From NCBI RefSeq assembly GCF_006965545.2, contig NZ_CP041372.2:1-64000 (forward strand): 64,000 bases of DNA, read 5' to 3'. Numbering within the stretch: position 1 is the stretch's first letter; each line of letters opens with the position of its first letter. A program made the translations under genes and the position numbers. This DNA is from Paenalkalicoccus suaedae. Lineage in GTDB: Bacteria; Bacillota; Bacilli; Bacillales; Salisediminibacteriaceae. The notes beneath the pieces are model-generated. The model was not told where the DNA came from. It did no database searches and worked only from the letters and a program-made list of their open reading frames with translations. This document shows, piece after piece, positions 10,951 to 41,124 of the stretch.

Positions 10951-11135
10951 TTGACACGTGAACGGTGGTAAAGGAGGGAAGATTGACTCAAGCGGAGGTC
11001 TGGGTGAGCAAAGGGAGCTTGATTTGATGCATACAGATCTTTCTTGATGTAAAGGAAGGCGCTTGACGCATATGGTCCTTAACTTTACACAAAGCAAACT
11101 AATAGGGTAGCAAACGAAGGCCGAAGTGATGTGGT
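10951..11135 (-). repeat. Inverted 21-bp-type degenerate repeat array upstream of rrn1
   Basis: On the minus strand this stretch reads ATGCGTCAAG, TTTACATCAAG, GTATGCATCAAAT and so on, matching the repeat downstream of both rRNA operons. The plus-strand cores (GAYGCA-like) begin at 10985, 11006, 11026, 11046 and 11065, spaced 21, 20, 20 and 19. One unit like the second repeat type (CGAAGTGATGTGG) lies near 11119. No gene is supported in 10874-11363 otherwise. The minus-strand reading frame across it is a by-product of a period divisible by three. Confidence 0.7.
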
Positions 11136-11690: not shown

Positions 11691-13260
<1,570 letters not shown>

Positions 13261-13499: not shown

Positions 13500-16436
<2,937 letters not shown>

Positions 16437-16560
16437 AGATATATAGTTTTACAGAAGGCGTCAACTAAGACGATTCTTCTTCTACATGTTCACTATCCAG
16501 TTTTGAAAGGTCAACGACCTTTATCTTTCTTGATTCGCATAGCGGAGCAAGAAATCATAG

Positions 16561-16677
<117 letters not shown>

Positions 16678-16684
16678 AAACGAG

Positions 16685-16711
16685 CATCCACCTGATGGTG
16701 GGTGTTTTTTT
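16685..16711 (+). terminator. Terminator of rRNA operon 1
   Basis: Stem CATCCACC / GGTGGGTG with loop TGAT, followed by seven T residues just after 5S. One G-U pair distinguishes it from the perfectly paired terminator of operon 2. Confidence 0.9.
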
Positions 16712-16765: not shown

Positions 16766-16970
16766 CGATCGTTTGCGTCAATCGAGAGAGTGTATACGTC
16801 TGTTAGGAGGTGGTTTACATCAAATCGGTGCGAGAGTGCGTCAGTTGGATCTTCGTATGCGTCGCCGCAGATTGATTTGCATCAAATGAAGGAGTGTATG
16901 CATCAGATAGAACGGCGTTTGCACTAAATCAGAAAGTAGGTACGTCGCTAAATTTTCCGTATATGACTAG
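16766..16970 (+). repeat. Type A 21-bp periodic array downstream of rrn1
   Basis: Nine degenerate units. The six-base cores (TGCGTC/TGCATC type) start at 16774, 16795, 16816, 16837, 16858, 16878, 16899, 16920 and 16941: seven steps of 21 and one of 20. The pattern is GTWTGCRTC, often followed by AAAT. The first eight units correspond in order to the units downstream of rRNA operon 2, so the two arrays share ancestry. The stretch decays by about 16965. Confidence 0.8.
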
Positions 16971-17020
16971 TAAATAGTGGGTCCAAATGTATCATAAAAA
17001 AAATGCCGAAACCGATAGAA

Positions 17021-17106
17021 TCAAGTAACAAGCGAAGTAGTCCGCAATTTGCGAGAAGTAGCGCAAAACTTGCCAAAAACCAACGCGGAACAAGCACTGT
17101 AAAGTA
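17021..17106 (+). repeat. Short type B repeat remnant downstream of rrn1
   Basis: Units CGAAGTAGTCCGCAA (17033), AGAAGTAGCGCAAAA (17054) and AAAAACCAACGCGGAAC (17075) are 21 bases apart, with weaker flanking ones. They match the second repeat type of the larger field after rRNA operon 2. The remainder up to the guaB promoter holds only a parS-like site. Confidence 0.6.
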
Positions 17107-17252: not shown

Positions 17253-17268
17253 TGTTTCACATGAAACA
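17253..17268. other. parS: parS-like ParB binding site
   Basis: TGTTTCACATGAAACA is a 16-base palindrome differing by one base from the Bacillus parS form TGTTTCACGTGAAACA. Origin-proximal location fits: parS sites load ParB (Spo0J) and SMC near oriC. Confidence 0.8.
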
Positions 17269-17350: not shown

Positions 17351-18877
<1,527 letters not shown>

Positions 18878-40191: not shown

Positions 40192-40308
<117 letters not shown>

Positions 40309-40411: not shown

Positions 40412-40740
40412 GGCATCGTTCGTTTGCGCCACATGGAGGCGCGTATACGTCAGGTTGGAGGTCGCTTGCATCAAATCAGCGAGTGAGTGCGTCACCTGAT
40501 CTGCCGTATGCGTCGAGGCAATTTGGTTTGCATCAAATGAAGGGGTGTATGCATCAGATAGAAAGGCGTTTGCATCACATTTAGCTACCACTGTGTCAGG
40601 GGGATCTTCGTATGCGTCTGTTCAACTACCTTTGCATCAAGAGGGAAACTGTTTGCTTCAAACGCCTGGGCGTATGCATTAAACAAGGGGTTTGTTGCGT
40701 CACTTGGTACTTGGTATGCGTCAAAGTGTATGGTGCAACA
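40412..40740 (+). repeat. Type A 21-bp periodic array downstream of rrn2
   Basis: Fifteen degenerate units. Cores (TGCGTC, TGCATC, TACGTC and similar) start at 40425, 40446, 40467, 40488, 40509, 40529, 40550, 40571, 40592, 40613, 40633, 40654, 40675, 40696 and 40717. Twelve steps are 21 and two are 20. The commonest pattern is GTWTGCRTCAAAT plus about eight free bases. Units GTATGCGTC and GTTTGCATCAAAT tend to alternate. No gene is supported here. Confidence 0.85.
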
Positions 40741-40756
40741 TCGCACACACCGAAAT

Positions 40757-41124
40757 AAGGGAGAAGTCTGTCACAAAAGAAGTAGTATGCAACACAGGAG
40801 AAGTAAGCCGGAAACGAAGTGGTGCGCAACCTACAAGAAATAAAATGCAAATTGCCAAAAGTATCGCGGAACAAGCGAGAAACAGTGTGGAACTTCGACA
40901 AAGTAAGATGCAAAAAAGAAGTAACGCATAAATAGTAAGAAGTAAAACGGAAATTGCTAGAAATATCGTGGAACAAGCGAGAAACAGTGCAGAAATTCGG
41001 CAAAGTAAGATGCAAAAAAAGAAATAGCACGGAAAAATGGAGAAGCAGAACATAAAGTGGGAGAAGTAAAACGCAACTCAGCAGAAGTAGTACGCAACTC
41101 GTAAGAAGGAATATAGTAGAGATC
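40757..41124 (+). repeat. Type B 21-bp periodic array, opposed to type A
   Basis: About 18 units with the pattern AGAAGTANNATGCAA. Unit starts: 40762, 40778, 40799, 40815, 40836, 40857, 40878, 40899, 40917, 40938, 40959, 40980, 41001, 41020, 41041, 41062, 41083, 41104. Thirteen of the 17 steps are exactly 21. A higher-order duplication is visible: the units at 40836-40899 recur almost unchanged at 40938-41001. The shared word GATGCAAA is the reverse complement of TTTGCATC in type A. Hydrophobic minus-strand frames across it are period artefacts. Confidence 0.82.

Follow-up and report, generated by a model that had tools for sequence, protein, structure and literature searches.

Helically phased repeat arrays behind rRNA operons and other genes of Paenalkalicoccus suaedae

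Repeat arrays in the rrn tails

In the window, i.e. the stretch of 64,000 nucleotides analysed here, which is the first part of the 3.97-Mb chromosome of P. suaedae (G000:C3), the DNA behind rRNA operon 1 carries a row of short units repeated about every 21 bp, and a similar row lies behind operon 2. This raises the question of whether such an array belongs to the rrn copy or to a wider class, and of what it may be for. The features concerned are given below in window coordinates.

11692-13258: 16S rRNA, rrn operon 1
13500-16437: 23S rRNA, rrn operon 1
16561-16677, plus strand: 5S rRNA, rrn operon 1 (Rfam RF00001, 100.3 bits)
16685-16711, plus strand: intrinsic terminator of rrn operon 1 (stem CATCCACC/GGTGGGTG and T run), with an equivalent block in all four aligned tails
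16771-16937, plus strand: type-1 array of operon 1, eight units of 21 or 20 bp with core GTWTGCRTCA, aligned to three other rrn tails
16938-16990, plus strand: decayed type-1 continuation, in register, seen in the sequence and the tail alignment and lying under the scan threshold
17033-17096, plus strand: three type-2 units (AGAAGTARNRCGNAA...), position-weight scores 16.4, 19.5 and 16.8
17253-17268, unstranded: 16-mer palindrome TGTTTCACATGAAACA, past the operon-1 tail and before the IMP dehydrogenase gene, outside the array; we take it to be parS-like, with one mismatch to the parS consensus
17351-18877: IMP dehydrogenase gene, the next gene after the operon-1 tail
40192-40308, plus strand: 5S rRNA, rrn operon 2 (Rfam RF00001)
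40422-40737, plus strand: type-1 array of operon 2, 14 detected units and one sub-threshold unit, in a five-unit register of 104 bp
40778-41103, plus strand: type-2 array of operon 2, whose higher-order repeat spans five subunits and 102 bp, from TRF and scan

The operon-1 array was found to start about 60 bases past the terminator. A position-weight scan placed the core T of its eight units at 16774, 16795, 16816, 16837, 16858, 16878, 16899 and 16920, corresponding to intervals of 21, 21, 21, 21, 20, 21 and 21 bp, while TRF reported just 2.3 copies (16876-16923). The few second-type units that the first-pass annotation had placed after the first-type ones were recovered by the same scan as three units with starts at 17033, 17054 and 17076. 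Behind operon 2, the scan revealed 14 type-1 cores spanning 40425-40717 and about 16 type-2 units (starts 40778-41083), with a TRF period of 102 at 40835-41019; about 20 additional bases precede the array in operon 2 compared with operon 1. Two further type-1-like units lie on the minus strand at 11031-11051, upstream of rrn operon 1.

Unit-for-unit alignment confirmed the earlier claim that the first eight type-1 units of operon 1 match those of operon 2 in order and register; its example, TTTGCATCAAATGAAGG followed by GTATGCATCAGATAGAA, was found at 16876-16912 and 40527-40563. Aligning four rrn tails showed the similarity to continue past the terminator at 16685-16711 and through the array. 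In the comparison of operons 1 and 2, 132 of 191 positions agreed without gaps over 16770-16960 (69%) and 75 of 92 in the terminator block, as against 1567/1567 for 16S and 2934/2935 for 23S rRNA, so that the tails have indeed diverged far beyond the rRNAs while keeping their phase. The claim that the 21-bp phase is kept is mostly borne out, with a fifth interval of 20 bp in each of the two tails. An array tail was present in all four operons that end in a terminator (5S at 16561, 40192, 104342 and 712068), as expected of homologous tails travelling with the rrn copy; the other four of the eight (5S at 98178, 306600, 1177045 and 2757013) have no array and run directly into tRNA genes.

Gaps among the four aligned tails measured 20, 41, 113, 128, 10 and 2-3 columns. 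Those of 20 and 41 columns equal one and two units, and the long gaps fall where the arrays end raggedly; unit number varies among the paralogous tails. Variable columns made up 14 of 90 in the cores versus 57 of 108 in the spacers (Fisher p 5e-8), a test that is mildly circular, with core columns defined from operon-2 matches only, though the contrast is large. Pairwise identity was 0.86-0.94 in cores and 0.50-0.77 in spacers, the exception being the most similar pair, rrnD-rrnF, with 0.94 and 0.96, respectively.

Arrays across the chromosome and in relatives

As an account of rrn tails, the earlier reading stands for the homology among rrn copies; it does not cover the arrays as a whole, which are not rrn-specific in this genome. 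Type-1 arrays with the five-unit higher-order register occur in more than 20 rRNA-free places; in total, type-1 arrays were counted at no fewer than 26 loci and type-2 arrays at about 27. The pattern TGCRTCA-N14-TGCRTCA gave 65 genome matches versus 3 for the reversed control, and with the spacing left free between 7 and 37 bp, 65 of 87 TGCRTCA pairs were again at 21 bp. A matrix re-estimated around the pattern matches yielded 231 type-1 units in 27 clusters, one of which is the two-unit cluster at 11031-11051. Tabulated intervals were 21 bp in 155 of 204 cases and 20 bp in 25; over the 231 units, six of the seven columns of TGCRTCA carried approximately 1.3-1.9 bits of information, and three spacer columns less than 0.1 bit. 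A fixed-position sample of 300 kb of the chromosome contained three type-1 arrays, one of them new (951823), versus none in a Markov-2 resample. For type 2, BLAST revealed 31 places with a 21-bp phase of their own (198 pairs at 21 and 137 at 42 bp), of which the count used here keeps 27, four overlapping or weak ones (L341, L343, L347 and one without a locus) being dropped.

In the larger type-1 arrays, an interval of 19-20 bp returns with each fifth unit: of 14 successive differences, 12 equalled 5, compared with a mean of 1.4 and a maximum of 7 in 5000 permutations. The resulting higher-order repeat of 4 × 21 + 20 = 104 bp, or 20.8 bp per unit, is found in many type-1 arrays. In a third family, with TGCATT as core (L355:714-1464), five cores make up a repeat of 103 bp. 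Two 52-bp units of this genome (L368) show, by eye in the consensus, two copies of a core 21 and 31 bases apart. Separately, a predicted but perhaps spurious ORF encloses an array at L369:7113-7524, where an 11-bp core, TTGTCATAACC, recurs almost unchanged in 19 units of 21 bp while the 10-bp spacers vary.

Gene context was scored for 49 arrays of both types against those intergenic regions of the sample that measure 100 bp or more (106 in number), using longest-ORF calls in place of annotation. The arrays lay between convergent genes in 23/49 cases versus 19/106 (p 4e-4) and between divergent genes in 3/49 versus 25/106 (p 0.007). In these counts, type 1 was scored without the tails of the four terminator-ended rrn operons and without the cluster of two units at 11031, type 2 with the operon-2 tail, and three uncertain type-1 contexts (1008925, 1010364 and 1111482) were scored as tandem. 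Flanking genes at the examined loci encode IMP dehydrogenase, Orn/Lys/Arg decarboxylase, transporters, S-layer proteins and a sigma factor.

Type-1 arrays face both directions relative to neighbouring genes. With respect to the replication fork, 22 of 27 type-2 places are co-directional, versus 6 of 22 type-1 arrays outside rrn. GC skew put the terminus between 1.855 and 1.94 Mb, and no type-2 place was found in an arc of 1.74 Mb (0.84-2.58 Mb) spanning it at about 1.9 Mb. An empty arc of this size occurred in none of 20000 random draws for 27 places; for the 13 clusters obtained by merging within 60 kb, p was 0.013. Type-1 arrays are present in this arc, and their own largest empty arc gave p 0.12. 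Type-2 places cluster locally, several lying within 17 kb at 3.46-3.48 Mb; terminus avoidance and fork bias of type 2 are leads only. The ten proteins surrounding the densest type-2 cluster (an amidase with SLH, a MacB-type ABC transporter, two MFS transporters, an ECF-type sigma factor, a phosphoesterase with SLH and four without matches) revealed no shared theme pointing to a candidate binding gene.

In the family, a three-unit type-1 pattern was detected in 4 of 35 genomes, namely the present one, G002, G013 and G008. The rrn tails of five relatives (G001, G002, G004, G008 and probably G023) contain repeats of 20, 21 or 52 bp with other cores: CGGATAAA at 21 bp in G008; TTTCGCTGATAGAAC in G002, spaced by 21 bp and by multiples of 41 and 62 bp; 52 bp with multiples of 104 and 156 in G004; 20 bp in 24.8 copies at 99% in G001; and, in G023, GGCGCRATAA units spaced by 21 bp and recognised by eye, where TRF made no 21-bp call. 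No array was found in the four terminator-ended rrn tails of G006, whose rrn layout is closest to that of this genome, or in two tails of G021. Because arrays stand at many rRNA-free places and the tails of relatives vary, the rrn tail, homogenised among the rrn copies, represents one preferred site within an array class that spans the genome.

Three observations from relatives are recorded separately. The 3' part of 5S rRNA is duplicated together with the terminator behind rrn in G001, G008 (L303) and G023 (L294:445-510; L307, reverse strand). Other Bacillales carry tandem repeats of 114-123 bp outside the two-turn class (L274:1172-1401, L276:2172-2485, L420:16860-17211 and L425:1528-1896). 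Among the TGCRTCA pairs listed for G008:C1, those at 1.28-2.59 Mb are forward and those at 3.73-5.15 Mb reverse, possibly a replication polarity, with the origin guessed from the rrn layout.

In the order, the GCGGATAAA-core pattern matched in 18 of 150 genomes, the listed pairs being mostly at 20, 21 or 40 bp. A scan of a wider collection of genome contigs for the core pattern gave, among the matches listed, mostly scattered ones in unrelated phyla, which are probably due to chance or coding repeats.

Periods were surveyed at fixed positions, 20 × 15 kb in this chromosome and 4 × 20 kb in each of ten relatives. The 44 intergenic TRF repeats of these 11 genomes had periods of 20 (8), 21 (13), 22 (1), 51 (1), 52 (5) and 103 (1), and the remaining 15 had periods of 14, 15, 16, 17, 26, 28, 32, 54, 56, 70 and 78; 14 of the 21 repeats with period 20-21 come from the 300 kb of this genome. 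A further 52 TRF rows inside predicted ORFs, some of which are probably spurious, were excluded from the 44 (15 of the 52 with period 20-21). Unit sequences of the sampled intergenic repeats were mostly unrelated. For periods of at least 18, phase concentration at 10.4 bp was R 0.71 (n 37), and R 0.54 (n = 22, permutation p 0.001) when each genome-period pair was counted once. Six-mer lags over all intergenic sequence peaked at 20, 21, 40, 42, 52, 63, 82, 84, 103 and 104 (control maximum 107), with lags 52, 103 and 104 probably dominated by a few large arrays; peaks off the whole-turn rule were at 32, 56, 57 and 112. G006 and G009 had none of the six-mer lag peaks. Beyond the family, TRF arrays were found in G027 (three of 21), G053 (20, 20 and 21) and G033 (one of 21), and no 20-21 TRF row in G130 and G097. 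In 200 kb of E. coli as a control, no intergenic TRF row was present, and lag counts at 102 and 104 were 46 and 38 (median 7).

A possible role at transcription-unit ends and its alternatives

The class may be described by a core about one helical turn wide, placed every two turns (20-21 bp; in higher-order form 52 or 102-104 bp) and separated by a variable, turn-wide spacer. With a probability of about 0.4, we read the arrays as rows of protein-binding sites that share one helix face, stand where transcription units end and probably affect DNA topology or read-through. Each core would be the site of a putative sequence-specific protein that binds double-stranded DNA. Because the cores sit on one helix face, molecules could bind side by side, perhaps cooperatively, as a continuous filament or wrap, and such a patch behind terminators or between converging genes might be a topological buffer, an insulator or a roadblock to read-through. 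In PMC8360656, positive supercoils are described as gathering between convergent genes and at the 3' ends of genes; transcription would drive them to the array positions behind terminators and between converging genes. Since such supercoils gather where the arrays sit, we consider an effect on topology or on read-through the most economical guess. The turn-wide core, the free turn-wide spacer, the conservation of the core and the placement behind genes fit a one-sided row of protein sites. The occurrence of such rows, with other sequences, behind many further genes of this genome and of related genera suggests an undescribed DNA-binding or DNA-topology system; a literature search among open-licence PMC papers found none matching these arrays.

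A real difficulty for a single-protein model is the variety of cores within a genome, not all of which could be read by one sequence-specific protein. Against the whole-turn rule stand the repeats at periods that are not whole turns and the missing lag peaks of G006 and G009; the unlike strand bias of types 1 and 2 also counts against the protein-site reading. A broader proposal, which we regard as doubtful, is that the arrays of Bacillales chromosomes are a regulatory or architectural class of DNA that conserves helical phase (2, 3, 5 or 10 turns) and site (behind rrn and between convergent genes), not sequence, with cores turning over between genera and with a co-evolving family of DNA-binding proteins or a phase-sensing topology machine as the driver.

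The chief rival, tentative as well and somewhat less probable than the protein-site reading, regards the arrays as selfish or neutral minisatellites that arise by tandem duplication, survive only behind genes, where neither genes nor promoters are broken, and have their period inherited from ancestral arrays or set by the duplication mechanism. As tandem-repeat expansion inherits the period, a shared period can be history, not selection. This repeat-birth account explains homogeneous arrays well, such as the near-identical recent expansions at equal period in the rrn tail of G001 and the exact 21-bp arrays of G008; the dispersed five-unit register shows copying of whole arrays, and tolerance also predicts a location behind genes. 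It explains the contrast of core and spacer poorly: spacers are near random while the cores of the same units are kept, and neutral decay would affect both. The concentration of whole-turn periods across unrelated sequences likewise speaks against it.

By analogy with the gyrase-binding REP/BIME elements of enterobacteria, the arrays could instead be wrapping sites that recruit DNA gyrase for the relaxation of positive supercoils behind strongly transcribed units, which we consider unlikely. Arrays behind rrn and between convergent genes do lie where positive supercoils gather according to parts of PMC8360656, and phases of two and ten turns suit wrapped DNA. Arrays follow ordinary genes too, however, and a base-specific 10-bp core exceeds what gyrase is known to need. 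Even less probable is a role as chromosome-organisation sites for anchoring, segregation or nucleoid occlusion, by analogy with chromosome sites that avoid the terminus: the empty type-2 arc would be in line with it, yet type-1 arrays occur inside that arc, and local copying, given the clustering of type 2, can mimic terminus avoidance. Sites of RacA (ram) and Noc were considered, the core resembling half of a ram site, and set aside because the known ram and Noc sites are palindromes.

An RNA element or coding sequence (3' UTR structure, antitermination or a heptad-repeat protein) is very improbable: 21 is a multiple of three and arrays come after genes, but steps of 20 and 104 bp break the frame and the orientation to transcription is mixed. 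A coding array was rejected on these steps and on stops in nearly all frames, and RNA structure on mean fold z values of +0.36 and +0.11 (16 arrays, both strands); no Rfam match at gathering score was found in the operon-1 or operon-2 tail. The mixed type-1 orientation, the missing RNA-fold signal and a repeat of 104 bp, not a multiple of three, make a role as duplex DNA the likelier one. Blastn of one array region against a plasmid collection and of the window tail against a phage collection gave no match.

Should selection act on phase and core, the arrays would make up a large set of DNA sites at transcription-unit ends in these genomes, and would give a concrete test case of the way in which positive supercoils and read-through are dealt with in bacteria downstream of rRNA operons. 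Without such selection, the arrays represent an unusually clear process of repeat birth tied to the helical repeat of DNA.

Comparison with known systems

REP/BIME elements, as described in parts of PMC3733652, are high-copy and extragenic, lie mostly downstream of genes or between convergent genes, and comprise several families per genome. The present arrays are likewise high-copy, extragenic, divided into several families within a genome, and placed behind genes and between convergent genes (23/49 versus 19/106). REPs, however, are palindromes that fold into hairpins, whereas these arrays are direct, helix-phased repeats whose fold z values (+0.36 and +0.11, 16 arrays) gave no such signal.

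With bacterial minisatellites or VNTRs they share head-to-tail units of tens of bases (TRF periods of 21 and 102 in the window) and the expansion and contraction of units. They differ in that, among the 231 units, only the core is common and spacers are near random, so that the copies are not near-identical, and in that unrelated sequences mostly have periods of 20-21, about 52 or 102-104 bp.

Plasmid iterons are direct repeats of approximately 20-22 bp whose conserved cores lie on one face of the helix, and the arrays resemble them in unit size and in the placement of conserved cores. Unlike iterons, they occur at tens of chromosomal loci, and no replication (rep) gene was found beside them at the loci examined. 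The Sal-box terminators of mammalian rDNA are an array of protein sites behind the rRNA unit; the present arrays are not rRNA-specific, and their protein sites are putative. CRISPR arrays have a long repeat and spacers of about 30 bp, whereas here the entire unit is 20-21 bp.

The TAACTGA repeats of Beggiatoaceae resemble the arrays as abundant intergenic direct repeats with a seven-base motif, but in the passages of PMC4679880 concerned the motif itself is tandem and no two-turn phase is described. A sequence signal at the helical period is also known from the A-tracts of prokaryotic genomes, reported in parts of PMC3431218 as a genome-wide signal at about 10-11 bp; the present arrays, by contrast, are discrete and place specific cores two turns apart.
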